A stretch of 64,000 nucleotides of DNA, from positions 85,887,270 to 85,951,269 of the forward strand of contig CM048846.1 in assembly GCA_026545225.1 (NCBI GenBank), given 5' to 3'. Below are positions 12,882-61,500 of this stretch, in pieces (position 1 is the first letter of the stretch; the number at the start of each line of letters is the position of its first letter). This DNA comes from Cornus controversa. Taxonomy: Eukaryota > Streptophyta > Magnoliopsida > Cornales > Cornaceae. The notes under the pieces are model-generated. The model saw only the letters and a program-made list of their open reading frames with translations, did not search any database and was not told the origin of the DNA. A program made the translations under genes and the position numbers.

Positions 12882-14090
12882 GGCTATGACATGTTACAAT
12901 AGGGTTATGACATGTGATTAGAGTAGGTTTACATGATGAGGCTAAATGGAGGAATCTGTTTTATTTTTTATTTTTATTTTGAGGGTAGGTTCCAGTATTC
13001 CTTTCACTGTACTATAACAATCCTGGGGAGCCAGAATATGCTTATGGAAATTATACAGCAGTGAATAATTTCAGATGTTGATAATCTTTTGCCTTCCAGA
13101 TGATTTTCTGTCCATCTAAAGATTGTTGATAATGTTTGCCGTCCTGACGATTGCAACCCTGTTATATTACAGAATTAGTCATACCCTTGATTGCACAGCT
13201 GCTCAATTTTCCACAGAACTAATGCTGTAATTTACTGCGGAAGTGAAACGCAGGTATGAATCTGAGCATCAATGTACAATGCGTGAAGCTCTTGGAAGGC
13301 AAGGTTTCTGTTTCTGACAAGGCATGGATGGCAACTACCAGGTGACTAAGTGTTCCTTAATTTAAAGATTACTCCATGAACTAGTTGATGAACCTACAAT
13401 GATGCGATAAATTCTGGGATCAGATTCACCATATGAGCATCATAAGCAGGCACTTCCATTCAGCTGATAGTAAATCCCATTGCGAGCGGAGAGTTCTGGT
13501 TTTAGAAATTTTAGGATGACTTTGTGGTGGTCTTCTTAAGAAGATTGAGACAATCATGCCAAAAGGGTAACCATACTCGCATAGCCCACTACTAGTTTGA
13601 TCTGATCAACTGCATAGCCTGAAATAGGTGAGCACCTCCAACAGAGTAGGGGAAGATTGTGACCCCTTTCCTTGAAAATGAAAGTTCTTTGTTTTATTTA
13701 CTTTTGATTTGGAAAACAGTTTAACTGAGATATTTGGAGACAACGGCTGAGTTGGATTACATCTTACGAATCCGAAATGTAAGATTAAAATTATTGTGCA
13801 AGCGATCTAACTTGGTTGTTGCATAAGCAATATAAATTTATTGCGTAAGCAATGCAAAACTGTTATGTAAGACACAAAATAGACATAGGATGAAAATAGC
13901 ACGGGAGAAGATCCAGGTTCGTTCCGTTTTTATGGAATAAAGTCTCCTTTTTTTGTGGTGAAAAAAAAAAACTCACTCACTCTTTTGTAAAAAAAAAAAC
14001 TCACTCACTCTTTTGTAGTTTCTGGTGTCCTAATAATAGTTGAATTTTTGTAGTTTTTTTTTTTTCAAAATTAGAGATAAAGTTTTTTTA
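12882..14090. other. 3' flank of the EMSY-LIKE gene and intergenic DNA
   Basis: Holds the 3' UTR and downstream sequence. A 30-bp direct duplication with A-run plus ACTCACTCACTCTTTTGTA occurs at about 13962-14018. No further gene is seen. Confidence 0.45.
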
Positions 14091-14950
14091 AGAGAAAATT
14101 ACTGTTAAGTTCTACTTTTCTCATTAAAAAACAAATAAGTCCTAAATATATTTTTTTAGGACTAATAAATTCTACTTTTTTCATTGAAAGACAAATAAGT
14201 CTTCAAAAATTTTCTTTAGAACTAATAAGTTTTAATTTTCTCATTGAAAAACATTTAAGTCCTAAAAAAAATTCTTAGGACCAATAAGTACTATTTTTGA
14301 TTTTTTTTTTTGTTTCCATTTAAGTCCTAAATCACTACATATTTCATTTACACCATAAATAAATAGAAGTAAAATTTTATAATTATATATTTATCCAAGA
14401 ATTGATATATAATCTATTTTTTATATATTCCTTTAAGTTTTAATTAGTTATTTAATAATATTGAATTATAATTTTGAATAATAATTAATTTAATTTAAAT
14501 TCAATTCAAAAAAACTTGTGTAGAAGACGATTTTAGTACCAAAAAAATTAATTATTCTATAAAAAATTAATAACATGTATTTTTAACCTTTTTATTCAAA
14601 ATTTATGTCTACTTTTGTAAGGATAATTTGAGTCAAAATTTTATATCTAATATTACAAATAATATATATATATTTATTAAGAGTATAAATTGAAAATTTA
14701 GTAATTTATGACTTAAATGAAAAATATATATATTCAAAAGTAGACTTATTAGTCCTAAAAAAAATTTGTTATGACTTATTTGTTTTTCAATGAAAAAAGT
14801 GAAACGTGTTGGTCATAGAGAAAAAAAAATTAGAACTTATTTGTCTTTTAATGAAAAAAATAGGACTTTTTAATTCTAAACAAAAATTTTTAAGATTTAT
14901 TTGTCTTTTAATAAAAAAAAATAGGACTTAAAAGTAATTTTTTCTTTTTT
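14091..14950. mobile_element. Foldback-type element with repeated inverted arms
   Basis: The left arm (about 14091-14330) has three diverged units containing TCATTGAAAGACAAATAAGT followed by a block like TTTTAGGACTAATAAGT. The right arm (about 14735-14950) holds the same units inverted. The centre is very AT-rich and non-coding. The layout matches foldback or subterminally repeated MITEs. No target duplication could be fixed, so the ends are approximate. Confidence 0.5.
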
Positions 14951-20266: not shown

Positions 20267-23200
20267 CTCCCCCTTGGGTTCATGACATTATAAAGATTAC
20301 AAGATTCTTGTGCATCTGAAAATGGTATTGCATATACAAGAACTGCCTCATTAAAACCTTGTCAGGAAAACCCAGTGGGATAAAACCTGATCGAAGGAAA
20401 AAGAGTGCAGTATGCTAATACCTTTTCAAACAAATTCTCCTCCTCATCAGCATGAAAAATCCTTGAGCTGCCGCATCCCAATATTGTGAACCAATTTCTT
20501 GAATGTCGTGGTAGGCAGAGCTTTAGTGAACAGGTCTGCCAAATTATCACACGAACGAATTTGCTGGACATCAATATCACCATTTTTCTGAAGCTCGTGA
20601 GTATAAAAGAATTTTGGTGAAATGTGCTTGGTTCTGTCTCCTTTGATATAGCCTCCTTTGATTTGCGCAAGACATGCAGCATTATCTTCATATAATATCG
20701 TTGGGATATTATTTATTGAGGAGAGTCCACAGTTTTCTCGAATATGCTGTATCATAGATCTTAGCCAAACACACTCTCGGCTCGCTTCATGAATTGCGAG
20801 TATTTCAGAATGGTTTGAAGAGGTTGCTGTCATTGTCTGTTTCATGGATCTCCATGATATAGCAGTGTCACCGCAAGTAAATACATATCCTGTCTGTGAT
20901 CGAGCTTTATGTGGATCAGAAAGATAACCTGCATCTGCATATCCAACTAACTGAGATTTTGATTTATTTGAATAAAACAATCCCATATCAGTGGTCCCAC
21001 GAAGATATCTCATTATATGCTTGACACCATTCCAATGTCTGCAGGTTGGTGCAGAACTGTACCGTGCCAGTAAGTTGACTGGAAAAGCTATGTCCGGTCT
21101 TGTGCAATTTGTAAGGTACATCAGTGCACCAATAGCACTCAAATATGGAATTTCTGGACCAAGCAATTCTTCATTATCTTCTCGATGACGAAATGAATCT
21201 TTCTTCACATCAAGCGATCGGACGACCATTGGAGAACTTAATGGATGAGCTTTATCCATAAAAAATCGCTTGAGAACTTTTTCTGTATATGTTGACTGAT
21301 GGATAAAAATTCCGCTTGGTAAATGCTCAATTTGTAATCCGAGGCAAAATCTCCTTTTTCCAAGCTCTTTCATTTCGAATTCTTTCTTTAAATAATCAGC
21401 AGTCGCGGTGAGCTCATCAGGAGTTCCCACAAGGTTTAAATCATCAACATATACTGCTATAATTGCAAATCCAGATCCTGATTTTTTTAATGAAAACGCA
21501 TGGACAGATAGGATTATTTACTTATCCTTCTTTGATTAAGTACTCGCTAAGGCGATTGTACCACATGCGTCCAGACTGCTTTAATCCGTACAACGATCGT
21601 TGTAACTTGATTGAATACATCGACTGTGGTTTTGAAGCGATTGCTTCAGGCATTTGAAATCCTTCAGGGATTTTCATATAAATATCACTATCAAGTGATC
21701 CATATAAATATGTTGTAACCACGTCCATTAGATGCATATTCAGCCTTTCTGTGACTGCCAAATTAATCAGGAATCGGAATGTAATTGTATCCATTACCGG
21801 AGAATATGTCTCCTCATAATCAATACCAGGCCTTTGTGAGAAACCTTGTGCCACTAAGCGGACTTTGTATCTCATAATTTTATTTTTCTCATTTCTTTTC
21901 CGTACAAATACCCATTTGTACCCTACAGGCTTAACACCTTCAGGTGTCTGGATTATTGATCCAAATACTTCACGTTTTGCCAGTGAAGTTAATTCTGCCT
22001 GTATTGCCTCTTTCCATTTTGGCCAATCACTTCTGCGTCGACATTCGTCAACGTATTGAGGTTTTGAATCCTCATTATCTCTTGCAATATCAAGAGCAAC
22101 TGCAAAAGAGAATATGTTGTCGACAAGAACATCATTTCTATTCCATCTCTTCGCATAATTTATTGAGATCTCATCATTTTCAGGTACGACTACCTCTTTT
22201 TGTGCCTCATCAAGGGCTATCATTTCTTCAGGGGCTATTATTGCTCCCTTTGTAAGTATGGCCTCCTCAGGAGTGCCATCTTCTTTATCTACTTTCTCTT
22301 GTACTTTCCTTTTTCGAGGAACAGTATCTTTTGCACCAATGGGTCTCCCACGCTTCAGGCGTGTTTTAGATGCATCTGCTGCAATACTTATAGACTGTCC
22401 AACAGGGACATCTATTCGTGCTGGGAAATTGGCAGGAGGGATATGAGATTGTATCACTTTACTTGTATCAGTAAATGCATCAGGCAATTGATTTGCAATA
22501 CTTTGCAAATGAATGATTCTTTTAACTTCAAGTTCTCTTTGACTTGTAGGGGGATCAAAATGTGATAATACCGTAGCATTCCAAGTGATCTCATGTTGTT
22601 GTTCAGGCTGTGTTATTTCTCCCCCTAATGGTGGGAATACCACCTCATCAAAATGACAATCAGCAAATCTTGCTTTAAACAAATCTCCTATCATAGGTTC
22701 AAGATATCTAATGATAGATGGAGAGTCAAAACCTACATAAATTTCAAGTCTACGTTGAGGGCCCATTTTTGTTCGTTGTGGTGGTGCAATAGGCACAAAG
22801 ACAGAACAACCAAAAACTCGTAAATGAGAGATATTTGGTTGTTGACCAACCATAAGTTGTAGAAGTGAAAAATTATGGTAAGCAGTTGGTCTAATACGAA
22901 CTAATGATGCTGCATGTAATATGGCATGTCCCCAAGCTGACACAGGGAGTTTTGTTTTCATAAGTAATGGTCTGGCAATCAATTGAAGACGTTTTATAAA
23001 AGACTCTGCTAGACCATTTTGAGTATGAGTGTGTGCAACAGGGTGTTCAACATCAGTGCCAATAGACATGCAATAGTCATTGAACGTTTTAGATGTAAAT
23101 TCTCCGGCATTATCAAGACGAATTACCTTGATTGGATAATCCGGGAATTGTGCTCTTAAACGAATTGTTTGGGCCAAAAGTCTAGCAAATGCTACATTTC

Positions 23201-25189
23201 GAGTAGAAAGTAAACAGACATGGGACCATCTAGTTGAAGCATCAATTAAAATCATAAAATAATGATAAGGTCCACATGATGGGTGAATAGGTCCACATAT
23301 ATCTCCGTGGATCCTTTGTAAGAAATCAGGAGATTCAACAACAACTTTTGAAGGAGATGGTCTCACAATCAACTTTTCTTGTGAGCATGCAGTGCATGTA
23401 TAATCACTTGTTAAAAGAATTTTCTGATTCTTTAATGGATGCCCATTTGAATTTTCAATAATTCGGCGCATCATTGTTGACCCAGGATGACCAAGGCGAT
23501 TATGCCATAAAATAAAATTTTTTGGGTCAGAGCACTTCTGGTGCATCACTACATGTGATTCAATTGCCCTTATCTTCATAAAATATAACCCAGAAGAGAA
23601 AGCAGGGAGTTTTTCTAAAACATGCTTCTGGCATGAAATAGTTAATGTAATGCATAGATATTCCATACTTCATTTATTTATTGTCTCAATATGATATCCG
23701 TTATGACGTATATCTTTAAAACTCAACAGATTTCTCTTGGATCTGGTTGAGTAGAGAGCATCATCAATATGCAATTGTGTTCCACATGGTAACACAATAT
23801 TAGCCCTTCCAGAACCATCAATCAGGTCTATGGAACCTGATATGGTATTAACATTAGCTTCAGCTAATGTTATATGGAAAAAATATTTTCTATCTCTCAG
23901 GATAGTATGTGTCGTGGCACTGTCTACCAAACATATATCTTCATCATTTATCTTGGATGTGGGCAATGCATTGATGAAATCCATTTTCTAAAAAGAAACA
24001 AACTTTATTACATTAATAAAAGTGTAATTACAAACAAAACAGGAAATAACATACTTATAAAAACCAAAAGAAACGATATTTAATTGATGTGGACATTTCC
24101 ATCATCAGTCCACTGTTTATTTATTTCAGGGAGGTCTTCATAGAAATCTGAAATATCAAGATGATTGATGGCTACCAGTTCATAATTTTCGATAGCATTT
24201 GTTTCAATCTCTTTTTCCTTCCCTTTTACTTTGATTGAAGCTTGATATAACTCAACGAAGTGTTTGGGCGCTCGGCAGGTCTGTGACCAATGCCCTTTCA
24301 TTCCACAACGAAAACAAGCATTTTCATATTGCTTGGAGGGTGCATTCGGCACACCTTTCAGCTTTTCTTGCTTGGCCCCACTTGCATTTCCTTCATGATA
24401 ATATGGTGTGTGGTTCCTGCTCGGAAACTCAAATGAAGGATAACCACCATTATTATTTCTGCCGCGGCCACGACCACGACCAAATCCACGACCATGTCCT
24501 CGACCACGTCCACGTCCACGACCATTAAAAGATGCTGAATGTGTTTCAGTTAATGAAGTTGGTCCGGTCTGGCGGGATATGTGGTTTTCTAATAAGAGCT
24601 CATTATTTTGTTCAGCTACTAATAAGCAAGATATCAACTCAGAATATCTTGTAAAATGTCTCTCTCGATACTGCTGCTGGAGGAGCAAGTTCGAGGGATG
24701 AAATGTGGTAAATGTTTTTTCTAACATATCCACATCATTTTTAGGCTCTCCACATAAAGTCATTTGGGAGCTAATTCGGAATAGAGCTGAATTATATTCT
24801 ATTACCGATTTATAATCAGACAACTTCAGTTTTGACCAGTTGTCTCGAGCTCTTGGCAGGATTATAGTTCTCTAATGTTCGAACCTATCCTTCAAATTTT
24901 TCCAAAGTACGGACGGGTCTTTGATTGTAAGATACTCGGATTTTAAATCCTCATGTATATGGTGGCGAATGAAAATCATTGCCATTGCCCGTTCTTGCAT
25001 AGATGCTTTATTTCCTTCTTTGATCGTCTCTCCCAAATTTTTAGCATCTAAATGGATCTCGGTATCGAGAATCCATGATAGATAATTTCTGCCCGAAATA
25101 TCAAGGGCAGTAAAGTCGAGCTTTGCAAGATTTGACATTATCAGTATACTATATTGGAAGATAAATATTGTTAGAATTTTATATGTAAG

Positions 25190-25257
25190 CATATTGACAT
25201 TATAAAATAATATAAATATGAACATGTCACTTCGCAATTGGAAAGGACTTTATATAT

Positions 25258-52690: not shown

Positions 52691-52849
52691 TAATATATTT
52701 ATGTCAATGTAAAGAAAATGCTCTCCTTGCTATGTTGGTTATTTAACATTTGTTCATTACAACATGCGTTTATGTTATGAGCTACTCTAATTCTGTTTTG
52801 TTTTTTATTTGACCAATTGATGATATGAATAATTGGAATGCATATGCAG

Positions 52850-53118
52850 AAGTTCTATCATCATTCTTATTCTTTTAATAACTCCCAGGTTCCTAGGATA
52901 TTTGGGATTATGGCTTCCCTTGTAAAATCTAAAGGTACGAAAGATTTAATGGATTTGATGCCTTAATTATATTATTCTAACTGTTTAGAAGTTGCTTCTA
53001 ATTTTATCCAGTTAGCCCGTTGCCTTGGAAAAGCTAATCTTATTAATCAATTTCTCTTTGTAGATTGAAGCTCATCGGGAACTGATCTATAAACTCTACA
53101 ATCTTATGAATTCAAAGG
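52850..53118 (+). pseudogene. Dicer-like 2 (DCL2) gene fragment, two exons
   Basis: The first exon remnant encodes KFYHHSYSFNNSQ, directly followed by VPRIFGIMASLVKSKG (to 52934, donor GTACG). It corresponds to the helicase segment EFYH...VPRIFGMTASLxKSKG found in plant DCL2. The motif reads IMAS instead of MTAS. A second exon after an acceptor TTTGTAG at 53063 encodes RELIYKLYNLMNSK, matching the DCL2 segment I-ELE-LMNSKVYT. The splice phases do not join in frame, and no other part of the large protein (about 1400 residues) follows, so it is a broken fragment. Dicer-like 2 makes 22-nt siRNAs in antiviral defence. Confidence 0.6.
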
Positions 53119-53399
53119 TTGCTTTTTTATCTTGCGATTGATTTTATCCTTATACATGCCATCTTGACACAATGTTAATTCAAAGCTGGAGAAAAAATGG
53201 CTCATATAACATGGTATTTTTGGGCTACTTTATATAGGTTATCACTGCTAATATTTTTTCTGGGTCTGTATTTAAGCATTTTTTAGGTAGATGATTGTGT
53301 TTCTTGTACTTCAATGGTGGGTCTGTAATTTACATCTCCTAGGATTTTCAATCATTATTGTTGTTTTTGTATGACATGTGATTCTCTTTTGACCAAGTA

Positions 53400-54617
53400 T
53401 AGTATTTGGACTTTGTATTGTCTTAGATGATTTCACTTTACCTGAATATTTTACTGCTTCTGGTCTTATGTGGTCTCATTTTGGTAAATTTGAGTCATTT
53501 GAAGAGCATGTATAAATGCTTAGAGAAATTGGGGTACAACGGTGATAGCACGTCCTCATGCCTACTTAGTGTCATTATGCGTCACATAATACATGCGGCA
53601 AGCATTCTTCACATTAGCTGAACATTAGTATTAATACCATAAATAGTAGCTCTGCTTATATTTGACTAATGTCATAATGCGAGAGGAAGTCCCTCTTGAG
53701 TTTATGGAACAGTTCCCAATAGGCACAACTCAAGTAGCATTGTTACTCGTTGCGATTCTTCTTGTAGGGTGTCAGGTGTAACAATAAGCTCCAATAGGCC
53801 TCTAAAGATCTATTAAAATTGAAAATATATATATATCAAGAAAAATGAAAGTAACATCAAAATCATCATGAAAAACCTTTGCTTGTTTTTAGATTTGTGA
53901 TAAAATTCCTTCACCAAAACAAGATACAATCATTAATATGTTTGATTGTTGAAAGATAGAAAACAAAAAGTAAGAGAGGAAATGTGAACTAGATGAAGTA
54001 TGAAAATTAGTGAAGGATTTTCTACTCACGAATGATGTTTACCTCATTATTTTTGTACAAGGATGATGGTTACTAGTAGCATATTGTCATTTACCATTTT
54101 CATACTCTGTACAAAAATAATGAAAGTAAACATCATTATATCTTGTTTCGGTGAAGGAATTTTATCACAAATCTAAAAACAAACCAAAAGTTTTTCATGA
54201 TGATTTTAATGTTATTTTCGTTTGTTTTGATATATATGGCCCTATTGTTACGCTTTACATCCTGCAACAAGAACCGCAACAAGTAACAATGCTATTTGAG
54301 TTGTGTGTCTGTTGGAAACTGATCTATAAACTCGAGAGGTGACTACTTCTCACATTATGGCATTTGTCAAATATAAATAGAGCTATTACTTATGATATTC
54401 ATACTAATTTTCAGATAATGTGAAAAACGTTTGTCACATCTATTATATGGACGAACAATGACACCAAGTATACATGAGGACGTACTATCACCATTGTAAC
54501 TGAATTCCTCTATGCATGTATACATGCTCTTCAAATGACTCAAATTACCAAATGGATATTATGTAAAGTATCCAAATCAAATGAAATCATCCCAGCCAAT
54601 ACAAAGTCCAAATACTA
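53400..54617. repeat. 1.2-kb imperfect hairpin built from DCL2-related sequence
   Basis: The left arm (53400 to about 54060) and right arm (about 54108-54617) are reverse complements over some 500 bp at roughly 80% identity by eye. The ends are TAGTATTTGGACTTTGTATT and its complement AATACAAAGTCCAAATACTA. The loop is about 47 bases. The left arm carries one extra block of about 95 bp near the loop. Both arms contain the DCL2-like exon (KEFYHKSKNK, plus strand in the right arm, minus strand in the left). No target duplication is visible at the ends, so this looks like an inverted duplication rather than a transposon. Confidence 0.75.
54149..54341 (+). pseudogene. DCL2-like exon remnants in the right hairpin arm
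   Basis: VKEFYHKSKNKPK (from 54151) matches the DCL2 segment IMKEFYHK before VPRIFGMTAS. CWKLIYKLER (about 54310-54340) matches the later YWKKI-ELE segment. The FGMTAS exon between them is missing, and the linking sequence looks intronic. The mirrored left-arm copy lies at about 53700-53935 on the minus strand (KEFYHKSKNK; YWELFHKLKRD). Confidence 0.5.
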
Positions 54618-54654: not shown

Positions 54655-55556
54655 TAAAATCATTCTTCAGGGACTTCGACATAAACTAATAGACTCCAAA
54701 AAGGACAAAAAGCAAAGCAAGACTGTCTCTAGTTATTGGGTAATGCAAGAGAAGATGACTAAATGACTCTTCATCTTTCTTTCACATACAACACCAATTA
54801 ACAATAATCTAACGTCTCCTTGGATTACCAATCATCAAAATCCACCGTAGTACCACTGTCTAACCGAAAAAGGCCATCTTGAGTGGTGCAATGGTGCGCC
54901 AAACTGCCTTCCAAGAACAAGGCATGTGAGCATTCATCAATCTCCTACCTAAAGAACACCTAAAAAAATCCCATGACTAGTATCCACCTCCCAACGATAT
55001 AGCATGGCAAGAAGCTCGCCAATATCTCCTAGCACCCGATCCTAAAAAGGTCTAACAAACTGAGCATCCCAAAACAACCTCCCGCTATCAAGGCGATGGC
55101 AGTCGGCAACCAAAGCCTCGTTGTCCACAGTTAACAGATTGAGACTCAGATAGGTGGATGCTACTGAACGATCCCCACACCACACATCCATCCAAAAGCC
55201 ATACTCCTCCCACTCCTCAACCTAAACTATGTCTTCAAAGAATTCATCCCACTTTTTTCGAATGGCCTTCCAAACACCCACCCCTGTCGACTGCCTCACC
55301 TCTAGAGATCACCACCCACGCTTGCACTCCCCAAACATGTTGAAGATGAACCTACTCCAAAGCTTGAGTTTATCCACCCCGAACCTCCTCAACCACTTCC
55401 CCAACAAGGCCTTATTGAACAACTCCAACCTTCTGATGCCCAAAGCAAAATAGGCCTACAAAAACTTGCTCCCAACTCCAACCTATCCAAAAATATATGC
55501 TGTCCCACTCCAAGTCTACAACTTGAAGACAAAACTTCACACAAAATATGATAGAG
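54655..55556 (-). mobile_element. L1-type LINE fragment, ORF2 3' part (copy 1)
   Basis: On the minus strand decayed pieces of the plant L1 C-terminus are readable: [38 protein letters not shown]-type sequence, then the zinc-binding zf-RVT region (WKAVWRTIAPLKMAFF; HLLLHYP). There are several stops and frameshifts. It shares its right end (ATAGAGA at 55556) with copy 2 at 60250-60993. Confidence 0.7.
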
Positions 55557-55689
55557 AATGTGTTTGTGTTTCTTTTTAGGTAACAAGCTCAAAGCTTTCA
55601 CTAACACAAATGAAATAGAAAGTCCATCAAATAATATCCAAGTAAAACGAAAAGAAAAAACAAAACATTGATGATACAACCAAGTACCT

Positions 55690-56185
55690 ATTAATATATG
55701 GTCCACATAAAGTTTCAACTTGCAAGTAAAATACAAAAACAACAAAGATCCAATAAAAAAACTAAATTTACAATTCTTTTTTATTTCAAATAAATTAAAT
55801 ACTCAAAAGAAGCTAAATTAACCTGTGTCACTACATGAAAGGCAAAACAATCAATATATATATATATAACTAGATTTCTCAATCCATGATAACTATGAAA
55901 AAAAAAACACAACAATCAATGCATGCCTAAAAATAATACATTTTTTTAATCAAAATTAAACCCTAGATAGCGAGTGCAAAAAAGGCCTTACAATTACAAA
56001 GCACATCACACAATCACTACGATAACCTCACAAATAGGGAGAATTGAATTATACGATGATAAGTTTAGATCTGAAATATCAAAACAGACATGTCTGAAGA
56101 GGCTGATTCACCATTGGAATTGAGAAAGAAACCCTAGGATTTGTCGAATCAATGAAATACCTGCATGGTCCAAAGGGAGAGAAAG
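55690..56185. repeat. Outer left arm of the large inverted duplication
   Basis: Matches the reverse complement of about 61020-61500. Shared blocks include TTTTTGTATTTTACTTGCAA-type sequence, GAGAAATCTAGTTATA, TTAATCAAAATTAAA-CCTAGAT and TGAGAAAGAAACCCTAGGA, ending at GCATGGTCCAAAGG. Non-coding. Confidence 0.7.
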
Positions 56186-56669
56186 AATAGAGAGAAAAGT
56201 ACGCTGACACATAAAAGTAGAGGTGCTTTTGGTTCAAATGTTCAATGAATCATGACTAATTATTAAATGTAAGGTAGAGGTTGATATGGTGTTCGAGTAT
56301 AACCCTTGTGGCGACTGGCAAGTGATTAGGTATTGGCAAGGTTGATTGATGATCAAATAAAAGATGCGCAAGATAAAGGGTTAGATATGAAGAGGACTGA
56401 GATTATTAGTGTGGCCATGTACATTATCGGTGGCTACTTTATATTTTCAAATAACTTATTACAAGGAAAATAAGGCAGTTTGTTGTTATGACATCTTTAA
56501 ACATTCAGGACTGACTCACCTCATGCAAAAGGGTATGCCAGGGAGATGTCCAGTAATTTCAAGTGCACCAAAATGATGTCATTTTAATGTACACCACTAC
56601 ACGTAACACCTTACATCAAGGACCAAGATCGAGATGCAATACCTATTAAATGAATATACAACGCCTCAA

Positions 56670-57300
56670 GCTCTAGTTTCATAGCCTCTAGTCGCTATCC
56701 CTCTCTGCGATCAATTTGGGGAAAGGAAAACAAAAGGCGGTTTGCTTATTATATTATCCATGATCACCCCAACCAAGATTTCAATTTAATCCATAACTCT
56801 TTTTGACCCATACCTAATTTCTTTAAAGTTAAACCCAACCCAATGGCCCAACCCTCAAAACTATCCAAGATTTCATATTGCTTGTGGAGTCATGTGTTGT
56901 TCTCAATAGGGGTGCACAAAAAACTGGTTAAACCGGAAAACCGAATAGAGTTTTTAAACGGTTCAGTTCGGTCCCGATTCCAAAAATATAGAAACCCTGA
57001 TATTATATTACATATAATATATATTTTATTTTAGCCTAAACCCGTAGAACGGTTCAGTTCCAATTTTTATGGAACCGTTAGGACTAATTTGGTTCCAAAA
57101 TATTCCTAAACTGCTCCAATCCGAACTGTGTGCACCCCTAGTTCTCAATATGTTATTCAAGATACATGTGATATTACTTATGGTTCAATACTATATTTTA
57201 AAAAAAATAAAAAATACACACGCACAAAGATTTGTTTCTTTCATTTTGGAAAATGCAAAAAAAAAAATTGGTTTGTTTCTTTCTTTCTCACTCCTTCCTT
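56670..57300. repeat. Inner left arm of the large inverted duplication
   Basis: Matches the reverse complement of 58080-58850 over its whole length, including GCGATCAATTTGGGGAA, TTTCAATTTAAT, GACCCATACCTAATTTC, and a hAT MITE at the same position. It ends with CATTTTGGAAAATGCAAAAA beside the spacer. Confidence 0.8.
56907..57140. mobile_element. hAT-type MITE, left-arm copy
   Basis: TAGGGGTGCACA...GTGCACCCCTA inverted ends with a perfect 8-bp target duplication GTTCTCAA (56899-56906, 57141-57148). At 234 bp it lacks about 160 bp present in the middle of the right-arm copy. Confidence 0.88.
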
Positions 57301-58079
57301 CACTCTCTTTTTACTTCTTGCCAATTTCATAACTGTTTACACCCTAAATATGGCACCTGCCATATTACGCCATTCATATGACCCATCAACCACGGGAATT
57401 GGCTATGTAACTGCTCTCAATTTCTTTGGTTGGTTTGCATTAGAACGTGGTATCGAAAATCAAGGGGAAGTGGATATTGGAAGTTTCAAAATATGGAGAG
57501 AACATGACCTATAGGAAAAGAAAGTTCTGAGCAATTAAAATCAGGGAATAACCATCATGCAAAGCTTACTATAAATACAAGTAACGTCAAATGAAGAACA
57601 CAATCTTTACAATGCACTTATCTTTTCATTGTACTTGCACTTTCATTGATAGTGTAATTCTTAGTTAACAGTTCTTTCAATTCCAGTTGTTAGCTTAGAT
57701 AGTTGCTCCTTCATTTCATAGCGTTGCAGTACATTTACCTTGTAGTTCACTTAGTTAATGCAATTAGTCCCAGTTCAGTTACAATATTTGCAATATTTTA
57801 AGTCCATCATATTTACACCATATTAGCAATATTAAAAGTCCCTTTCCAAGGCAAGAAGAACCAACAAAGGGTGGTCATTGAGACTCTTTTCGCAATCGTT
57901 GATACGTCTCTCAACCGAATATCTGGAATATTGTTCGGCCCACATTGGGTTATGCTAGGATCCTAGCACGCCCACGTCAAGCAAAAATATTTTGTGAGCC
58001 AAACATTTTTTGACACATCCAGGGTGTCTAGTGATGAAAAACACTTCTACAACAAGGTGGGAGAAAAATAAAAAAAGAA
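57301..58079. other. Single-copy spacer at the centre of the inverted duplication
   Basis: About 780 bp not repeated in the arms. It contains a short open frame (57350-57514), a TATA-like CTATAAATA at about 57570, and a CCTAG-rich block near 57955. I cannot assign it to any gene or element. Confidence 0.4.
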
Positions 58080-58850
58080 ACCATTTTTTTTTTTTTTTTT
58101 GCATTTTCCAAAATGAAAAAGAAATAAAATTTGTGTGTGTGTTTTAAAAATATAGCCTCAAACCATAAGTGATATCACATGTATCTTGAATAACATATTG
58201 AGAACTATGGGTGCACATGGTTCGGATTGGACCAGCTAAGGAGTATTTTGGAACCAAACCGATCCTAACGATTTCATAAAAATTGGAACTAAACCAAACC
58301 ATGAAACCAATGGGACCGAACCAAACTTTCGTTTCTACAGAATTAGGCTAAAATAAAATATATAATAAAAATATAATATTATATTCTATTATTCCAAAAT
58401 ATATTATATATAATATATAAATATACATTAGATATAATATATAAAAATATGTATATTTATATAACAGCTCGATTCGATTTGGTCCAGTAGAATTCCAAAG
58501 CAGACCCAAATCATTTATAAACGGTTCCATATTTTTGGAATTGGGATTGAACTGAACCGTGAAAAAACCGAATTCGATTTACCAGTTCAAATGCACCCCT
58601 ATCGAGAACAACAATATAAAATCTTTGAGAGTTTTGAGAGTTGGGCCACTGGGCTAGGTTAGGTCCAATATGAGTTGGGTTGAACTTTAAGGAAATTAGG
58701 TATGGGTCAGAAAGGGTTACGAATTAAATTGAAATCTTAGTCAAGTTGATCATAGATAATATAAACAAACAACCTTTTGTTTCCCTTCCCCAAATTGATC
58801 GCAGGGAGGGAGGGCGACCGGAGGCTAGGAAACTAGGGCTTGAGGCAACA
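58080..58850. repeat. Inner right arm of the large inverted duplication
   Basis: Reverse complement of 56670-57300. It is longer mainly because its MITE copy keeps the AT-rich centre. Confidence 0.8.
58206..58601. mobile_element. hAT-type MITE, right-arm copy
   Basis: Ends TATGGGTGCACA and TGCACCCCTA are flanked by TTGAGAAC (58198-58205) and TCGAGAAC (58602-58609). These are the complement of the left copy's GTTCTCAA, so both copies descend from one insertion that was later duplicated in inverted order. Length 396 bp, with an AT-rich centre. Confidence 0.82.
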
Positions 58851-60249
58851 AAACTTTGAGGAGCTGGTGTCTGGTGATGCAATAAAAATGAAGATGGCAA
58901 CAAGCTCTGGCAAAGATTGCAAATAGCTTCTCTCTCTCTCTCTCGCTGTCTCTCTCTTGTGGCTTTGAGACCAACAAAAATTTACCATTTCTTTGTGACT
59001 TGGGTTTTGAATGTTAGGGTTTAGAGACAGGGTCTAATCGGTGCTAGGGTTTCGTGATGGGGCTAGGACTGGCTTGAAACAGTAGTGTTTGGCTAGGGTT
59101 TGTGATGTTGATAGGGCTTCGGTTCTGTGTTGTTTGGTCGGTGATGGATTTCAGTGAGGGTTACACAACGGGTTAGGGCTATGATAGTTGTCAACTAGGG
59201 CTGGTGTTTGTGAAGGCTGAGTTTCAAGACAGTGATGGAAATTCTTATACTAAATTCAGGAATTTTTTTGGGTATTTCACAATAAATTCAGGAAATTTTT
59301 TGGGTATTTCACAATAAATTCTAAAAATATTGAAATTTTTTGAGATGGATTCAAGACTTTTCAGTTTCAAGAACATATCAGGAAAAATTCAAGAATTTCA
59401 AAAAAAAAATGGAGAATATTAGCATTAGTATTGAGCCTCTAAACAAATGTGAGGTTGGGTTGTGAACTTGTGGGTTCCTACTTAACTTGACAGGTCTAAT
59501 TTGATTTAGTATTCACCCAGCCCATCTATGTGTTGGCCTTACTGCTGGGTAGGGCTTTCTTGAGGTCCAAGACTCAATATGACAATTAGTAAAATGAATA
59601 TGATCAACTCAATGTTCTTTTGAAAAGTATCTGCATTAACATTTTTTGGGGAAAAAATAACTGAATATTAGTTATAGTATAATTTAAAATTTTAGAATCA
59701 ATATGGTGTTAGTTAGGAATTCAATTCTTTATTACTGTGCACAAAAATTCAATTAGACAGCTTATCTATAATAAATAAATGAAATCAAACAAAAAAAGAT
59801 GAAAATTGAAACCTTTTTACTGCGTTTGCATTGGCAATGATAGCTACCTGTTTTAAATAGTCTTTTTAGTAAGAGATTTTATTCTTAGAAAATAGAAAAA
59901 AACTAATTCCAAAGAACATAACACTTTTAAATTTGTGATTTGACTCGCAAATGTAAATATTGGTTGAACACATTACATAAAGAAAGAGTCTGTTATAAGG
60001 TTGCTCCCACTAAACTCACACCCTTAATAAATCTTCTCCACATAAAAGTAATTATTGTGCGCAGTAATCTTAACTTAGACCAACACATGATGAATGGAAG
60101 TGGTCATAGAGTGGGATCCCAGATTCTCTCATCTACAATGACAGGTCCAGTACTTTCAAGCGCATGAAAACGACGTATTGTGAGCAGTGATATTAACTAG
60201 CATCATCACATGATGGATGGAAGTGGTCACATAGTAGGATTCGAATCCT
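58851..60249. other. Right-arm-specific stretch of the inverted duplication
   Basis: No counterpart in the left arm was recognised. It has a CT run near 58930-58957, a two-copy tandem repeat (AAATTCAGGAA...GGGTATTTCACAAT, about 59251-59318), and a 60-bp direct repeat at 60057-60115 and 60183-60243. No gene is seen. Confidence 0.45.
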
Positions 60250-60993
60250 CCCTAATACCACAGTCCAGCCGAAAAAGGCCATCTTGAGTGGTGCCTTGGT
60301 GCGCCAAAATGCCTCATGGCTTGCGAGCATCCCATCAATCTCCTGCAGAAAGAACGCACCTAAAAAATCCCATGACTAGTATCCATCCAGCACCAAGCAT
60401 CGAGCACCGGCCCGCCCACCTCCCTCGCGATACAGCACAACACGAAGCTCGACAATATTTCCTAGCACTAGGTCCTAAAAGGGTCTAACAAACTGAACAT
60501 CCCAAAACAACCTCCCGCTATCAAGGCGATAGCAGTCAGCAAATAAAACCTTGTCCACAGTTATTAGATAGAAACTTGGATAGGTGGATGCTAATGAACA
60601 ATCCCCACACCACACATCCATCCAAAGCCATACCCCTCCCACTCCTCAACCCAAAGTAAATGTGTTCAAAGAATTCGTCCCACTATTCCAAATGGTCTTT
60701 CAAACACCCACCCCTGTCTGCTGCCTCACCTCTAGAGATCACCACCCACCCCTGCACTCCCCAAACATGTTGAAGATGACCCTACTCCAAAGCTTGAGTT
60801 TATCCACCCCGAACCTCCACAACCACTTCCCCAGCAAGGCCTTATTGAACTACTCCAACCTTTTGATGCCCAAACAACCTAGCTAAATAGGCCTACAAAC
60901 TTGCTCCCAACTCCAACCTACCCAAAAATATTCGTTGAATATCGCACTCAGTTTACAACTTGAAGACAAAAACTTAACACAAAATATTATAGA
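60250..60993 (-). mobile_element. L1-type LINE fragment, ORF2 3' part (copy 2)
   Basis: Direct repeat of about 54849-55556, with shared blocks such as CCGAAAAAGGCCATCTTGAG and CCTCACCTCTAGAGATCACC, and the same right end (ATAGAGA). It encodes the same decayed L1 C-terminal piece on the minus strand. Here it abuts the outer right arm of the inverted duplication. Confidence 0.7.
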
Positions 60994-61019
60994 GACAAAA
61001 CTTGCACTCCTACCTTTGG

Positions 61020-61500
61020 ACCATGCAAGATTAGACGATTCCTAGGGTTTCTTTCTCAATTCCAAAGGTGTGGTTCAATTTTATCTACTGTGAGGTTATG
61101 GTAATAATCGTGTGGTGTGCTGATGTGCTATGTATGATGAATCTGGTAAGGCTCCTTCTTTGCACTCGCCATCTAGGTTTTAATTTTGATTAAAAAATGT
61201 ATAACATTTAGGCGTGCTTTGATTGTTGTGGTTGTTTTTTTTCTCATTTTCCATAGTATTTATTGATTGTTGTGGTTGTTTTTTTTCTCTTTTTCCATAG
61301 TATTTATGGATTAAGAAATCTAGTTATAAAATATATATTGATTGTTTTGCCTTGACTGGGTTAATTTAGCTTCTTTTTAGTATTTAATTTTATTGAACCA
61401 AAAAGAATAGTAAATTTAGTTTTTTTAATGGATCTATGTTGTTTTTGTATTCTACTTGCAAGTTGCAACATAAACAAGTGAAGTAACATAAACCGAAAAG
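61020..61500. repeat. Outer right arm of the large inverted duplication
   Basis: Reverse complement of 55690-56185. It also contains its own small direct duplication, GATTGTTGTGGTTGTTTTTT at about 61219 and 61265. Confidence 0.7.

Follow-up and report, generated by a model that had tools for sequence, protein, structure and literature searches.

Does the long inverted repeat at 53400-54617 of this Cornus controversa DNA silence a Dicer gene through small RNAs, or is it what remains of a Dicer-like pseudogene? A preliminary description had reported a hairpin of Dicer-like 2 (DCL2) gene fragments with arms of about 500 bp and a loop of about 47 bases, and had proposed that it could feed DCL2 activity back on DCL2 itself. 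In a self-BLAST of the 64-kb window (the whole stretch of DNA that was analyzed), the top-scoring inverted pair was 53400-53933 / 54617-54132, with 75.5% identity over 539 columns when gaps were counted and an E-value of about 1e-110. This confirmed the 1.2-kb inverted repeat at the coordinates first given for it. Without the 58 gap columns, the arms were identical at 409/486 positions (84%). The repeat has the following parts.

53400 to 53933, plus strand: left arm of the inverted repeat, from self-BLAST (534 nt)
53934 to 54131, no strand: spacer between the strict arms, from the self-BLAST arm limits (198 nt)
54031 to 54137, no strand: nested imperfect palindrome, from self-BLAST (self-pairing of 75% over 112 columns) and the minimum-free-energy (MFE) fold
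54132 to 54617, minus strand: right arm, the reverse complement of the left arm, from self-BLAST (486 nt)

The loop of about 47 bases belongs to the nested palindrome, and the spacer between the strict arms is the longer interval of 198 nt. In the MFE fold, 54031-54059 of the nested palindrome paired with 54108-54137, leaving 48 bases between the main stems, which closed further to a 22-base apical loop. The MFE of the 53400-54617 RNA was -588.9 kcal/mol for the plus strand and -605.7 kcal/mol for the minus strand, whereas 40 dinucleotide shuffles of the repeat had a mean of -251.8 kcal/mol and a lowest value of -268.0 kcal/mol; 419 pairs joined one arm to the other. The fold, which had been suggested as a check on the hairpin, thus bore it out, and self-BLAST and folding together indicated that 53400-54617 is a long inverted repeat from which dsRNA could form. 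All six reading frames of the repeat were interrupted, with 26-31 stops in each, and there was no Rfam match at the gathering score in the whole 64-kb window. The perfect runs of 33, 28, and 21 bp in the duplex between the arms favor the proposal of an active hairpin-siRNA locus that would silence DCL2 or DCL3 in trans, the Dicer feedback loop first suggested.

Translation of each arm confirmed that both encode KEFYHKSKNK, the left arm on the minus strand and the right arm on the plus strand, and that the right arm also encodes WKLIYKLER; the left-arm counterpart of CWKLIYKLER is a diverged AYWELFHKLK. A pair of DECH-box segments, oriented opposite to KEFYH, is an addition to the segments described earlier. 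The Dicer references were from Arabidopsis only, with the DCL1, DCL3, and DCL4 letters as printed in the PDB and the AtDCL2 letters provisional; among the 51 PDB sequences listed, DCL1, DCL3, and DCL4 were present and none was named DCL2. The segments in the arms are as follows.

53655 to 53693, plus strand: DECH-box (helicase motif II) segment of the left arm, LIFD*CHNARGSP, rank 2 of 127,924 positions
53692 to 53724, minus strand: AYWELFHKLKR segment of the left arm, weakly DCL2-like; window top for SYWKKIHELET, reached by 28/100 shuffles
53867 to 53932, minus strand: KEFYH segment of the left arm, LYLVLVKEFYHKSKNKQRFF; best tblastn match AtDCL3, 10/19 identical, 26.6 bits
54133 to 54198, plus strand: KEFYH segment of the right arm, SLYLVSVKEFYHKSKNKPKVFH; best tblastn match AtDCL3, 11/19 identical, 29.6 bits, E 2.3e-4
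54307 to 54339, plus strand: VCWKLIYKLER segment of the right arm, rank 28 of 127,900 with a 17-residue DCL2 query; weak to moderate
54339 to 54377, minus strand: DECH-box segment of the right arm, FIFDKCHNVRSSH, rank 1 of 127,924 positions

When a DCL3 segment was used as the query, the right-arm KEFYH ranked first and the left-arm KEFYH second among 127,870 window positions, with scores of 59 and 47 against a maximum of 43 over 100 shuffled windows (0/100 reached either). With a ten-residue KEFYH profile of DCL1, DCL3, and DCL4, the best score was reached in 0/100 shuffles and the second-best in 5/100. KEFYH had been called DCL2-type on the understanding that DCL2 should be its best match; in tblastn with the Arabidopsis references, however, AtDCL3 scored higher than the provisional AtDCL2 letters in both arms (29.6 vs 20.4 bits on the right, 26.6 vs 20.8 on the left), and that assignment was not upheld. 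With a DECH profile of all four DCLs, the score of neither arm was reached in 100 shuffled windows (best score 39.5, shuffle maximum 34.25); with the provisional DCL2 row removed, the right-arm score was reached in 0/100 shuffles and the left-arm score in 3/100. The DECH segments scored 23.9 (left) and 22.3 bits (right) with the provisional AtDCL2 letters versus 16.9-20.8 bits for the listed rows of the other three DCLs, so that this piece appears to lean to DCL2 insofar as the provisional letters hold. Because KEFYH matched AtDCL3 best while DECH leaned to DCL2, the arms were not assigned to one DCL subfamily, and because all references were from Arabidopsis, the arms could derive from DCL2 or from DCL3, or they could be a mixture of the two.

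Upstream of the repeat, the preliminary description had placed a further DCL2 fragment (the FGIMAS piece). Two DCL2-like fragments were located there.

52844 to 52936, plus strand: DCL2-like helicase fragment, MQKFYHHSYSFNNSQVPRIFGIMASLVKSKG; 17/31 identical to provisional AtDCL2 in tblastn, E 1.25e-6
53064 to 53120, plus strand: DCL2-like fragment IEAHRELIYKLYNLMNSKV, exon-like and directly after AG, colinear with provisional AtDCL2 LDSYWKKIHELETLMNSKV

The FGIMAS piece, VPRIFGIMASLVKSKG at 52889-52936 on the plus strand, proved to be the end of the fragment beginning at 52844. Its assignment held: among the Arabidopsis references, 52844-52936 scored 39.3 bits with the provisional AtDCL2 letters versus 25.0, 25.4, and 25.0 bits with DCL1, DCL3, and DCL4, respectively. 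With a PRIFGMTAS profile built from the PDB-printed DCL1, DCL3, and DCL4 letters, the upstream score was reached in 0/100 shuffled windows, and a PDB search with the upstream peptide returned DCL4 alone, at E 0.23. The fragment at 53064-53120 was weak in tblastn by itself (E 0.64); none of 1000 peptide shuffles was as good, it ranked first of 127,900 positions, and it resumes the DCL2 colinearity of 52844-52936 past an intron-like gap ending in AG. Within it, 53077-53096 had 19/20 nt in common with 54314-54333, the DNA of the right-arm WKLIYKLER. This match apart, eight comparisons of the upstream region with the arms gave no significant overall DNA homology, being equalled by 11 to 182 of 200 shuffles, and with a short upstream query the two best orientations would run KEFYH the same way (11/200 and 15/200 shuffles as good).

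Chance resemblance, with arms unrelated to Dicer genes, would explain why the Dicer-like segments are short and why some lie within reach of shuffles, namely YWELF (28/100), VTPDTLQ (2/100), and, with the PDB-derived rows only, the weaker DECH copy (3/100) and the weaker KEFYH copy (5/100). The DCL3 scores of both KEFYH copies and the best DECH score nevertheless exceeded the maximum over 100 shuffled windows, and both motifs occur with a clear DCL2-like fragment inside 1.8 kb; we therefore regard chance as extremely improbable, and the earlier view that the hairpin holds Dicer-like helicase fragments stands. Pfam gave no match for the two peptides tried, which are short and degenerate, and the PDB search gave none for the right-arm peptide. 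A further left-arm candidate spotted by eye, LLELIVTPDTLQ...LLELC at 53809-53723 (minus strand) in the KEFYH frame, ranked first in the window for a C-terminal motif of DCL3; it was reached by 2/100 shuffles, its right-arm counterpart ranked 74, and it is left as an unproven DCL3 piece.

On the plus strand, the motifs of the repeat are ordered DECH (plus), KEFYH (minus), spacer, KEFYH (plus), and DECH (minus), whereas in the printed DCL1 and DCL3 12 residues lie between DECH and (K/S)EFYH on one strand. Because the two motifs are neighbors on one strand in Dicers, the arms carry a rearranged and stop-interrupted Dicer fragment in which DECH and KEFYH are opposed in each arm; the left-arm DECH box itself carries a stop inside the motif. 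Inverted duplication of an intact Dicer stretch would not by itself produce this arrangement, and we infer at least one further rearrangement because each arm bears the two motifs in opposite orientations. The arm-to-arm alignment stops at 53933/54132; the homology on the KEFYH side, as scanned, starts a single base away (53932/54133). One specific inversion model was not supported: the continuation expected beside the inverted piece was absent, and 31% of 1000 shuffles were as good.

The long arms might instead be the terminal inverted repeats of a foldback or MITE-like transposon that captured Dicer fragments. The outermost 21 bp of the repeat are perfectly inverted, and the window holds several further large inverted repeats, as would suit this origin. 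At the ends of the repeat, however, no target-site duplication was found, whether among exact repeats of 4-7 nt or, with one mismatch allowed, among those of 8-12 nt; a TA duplication would be indistinguishable from the repeat itself because TA is self-complementary. The termini, TAGTATTTGGACTTTGTATTG, were single copy in the 64-kb window: a search allowing up to 3 mismatches gave two matches, both being the ends of the repeat, and no second element. We consider a transposon origin rather unlikely.

The window contains other repeats and coding frames. Within an AT-rich tract, the 857 bases of 14090-14946 are imperfectly self-palindromic (70% over 887 columns). Two kilobases downstream of the locus, the nested inverted repeats 56663-56993 / 58525-58846 (73%) and 57051-57289 / 58063-58295 (80%) form a second large foldback structure. 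A duplicated block, part direct and part inverted, lies at 54839-55557 / 60244-60995 and 55712-56048 / 61074-61469; by eye, its minus strand resembles the terminal part of a LINE-type reverse transcriptase. A Ty1-copia-like element at 20447-25249 (minus strand) is split over several reading frames, two of which contain RVT_2; the larger of these also has gag_pre-integrs, and integrase matched it below threshold. The window also holds a frame for a PPR protein with an E motif and kinase, LRR, and F-box frames, which together with the Ty1-copia-like element are in keeping with plant DNA.

The divergence of the arms bears on whether pairing has been maintained. The arms differed by 51 transitions and 26 transversions. 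In the plus-strand RNA, 23 of the transitions preserve a G-U pair and 28 disrupt the pair, and the numbers swap for the minus-strand RNA; there was accordingly no clear sign of selection on pairing. C-T differences between the arms occurred at 16/34 CG and CHG sites and at 35/140 CHH sites (Fisher p 0.02). The same bias was found nearby: in the direct part of the duplicated block (54839-55557 / 60244-60995), C-T differences were about four times commoner per site at CG and CHG (19/63) than at CHH (21/271; p 9e-6), and it recurred in the two inverted repeats of the downstream foldback structure, with p about 0.04 for either one. The remaining control, a third inverted repeat, contained no CG or CHG sites. 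The bias fits past cytosine methylation of the neighborhood better than anything specific to the hairpin. Among five arm stretches compared, the KEFYH region was the most similar (61/66) and contained the longest perfect run (33 nt, or 34 when gap columns were skipped), although a longest run at least as great arose in 17% of 5000 permutations.

Several known systems join hairpins, Dicers, and gene-derived sequence. DCL2 and DCL3 process the transcripts of IR71, an endogenous long inverted-repeat siRNA locus of Arabidopsis, with DCL4 acting secondarily (PMC12825306); the Cornus locus is likewise long self-complementary DNA, but its arms are 0.5 kb long and its small RNAs hypothetical, whereas IR71 forms about 3 kb of dsRNA with demonstrated small RNAs. 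Young MIRNA genes originate by inverted duplication (Allen et al. 2004, cited in PMC3707012 and PMC12825306) and resemble the locus in having gene-derived sequence in both arms of an inverted duplicate; here, in contrast, the arms are scrambled and mostly unrecognizable as coding, and their likeness to a live target gene is putative. MIR838 in intron 14 of AtDCL1 and miR1047 in intron 7 of PpDCL1 are also hairpins tied to Dicer gene sequence, but they lie inside a working gene and act via pre-mRNA processing, whereas the hairpin described here is a detached pseudogene fragment (PMC4429486). In Teosinte Pollen Drive in maize-teosinte hybrids, DCL2-dependent 22-nt hairpin siRNAs target a lipase gene and lead to pollen killing (PMC11390486); the Tpd1 hairpin and Dcl2 similarly bring together a long hairpin and DCL2, although the target there is the lipase gene and the Tpd1 hairpin is not described as Dicer fragments in the available portion of that source. 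In legumes, miR1507 and miR1515 cleave DCL2 mRNAs (PMC3707012).

The related logic of miR838, miR1507/miR1515, and the maize-teosinte siRNAs lends the proposed Dicer feedback some plausibility. Against it, the coding-like pieces are short and degenerate, with at best 11/19 residues identical to AtDCL3; transitions lack a preference for keeping pairs; the locus decays like the neighboring repeats, with the CG/CHG bias in common; and provisional sequences of miR1515 and miR6026 had no match within 3 mismatches in the whole window. Trans-silencing of an intact Dicer would depend on near-complementary stretches of 21-22 nt in the exon-derived parts, which is possible but unlikely because these parts are degenerate and cover 138/534 nt of the left arm (sum of segment coordinates). 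Feedback silencing of a Dicer gene by the hairpin, a proposal made from sequence, seems unlikely, and we judge an active locus silencing DCL2 or DCL3 in trans improbable. A self-limiting loop, in which Dicer-made siRNAs from a hairpin of Dicer fragments would silence at least one DCL2 or DCL3 gene, seems very improbable. Within the open-licence literature, the titles and abstract beginnings of part of the matching papers named no hairpin built of Dicer fragments, and phrases for a Dicer pseudogene or a Dicer inverted repeat gave no match.

The repeat, the Dicer-like segments, their opposed orientations, the stops, and the divergence of the arms are all observed. We favor a scrambled pseudogene: the locus probably arose long ago by inverted duplication of a Dicer-like fragment, rearranged and non-coding, from the DCL2/DCL3 helicase region, and it lies beside a second, DCL2-like pseudogene fragment. 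We read it as a once-methylated, decaying relic. The steps of rearrangement may have been that a pseudogene copy was first scrambled, so that the DECH-box and KEFYH pieces came to face opposite ways, and that an inverted duplicate of this stretch was later made by foldback or template-switch repair; the locus would subsequently have been methylated and have decayed as nearby repeats do. Transcription by Pol II or Pol IV would provide DCL2, DCL3, and DCL4 with a substrate, as in the case of IR71, and so give rise to 21-24-nt siRNAs, which, if produced, would probably act mostly on the locus itself and maintain its methylation. The locus, with two adjacent Dicer motifs opposed in each arm, would be an example of a scrambled gene fragment turned into a long hairpin. 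If it is transcribed, the Dicer substrate and the Dicer gene would share sequence, which could couple the dosage of Dicer to its activity.
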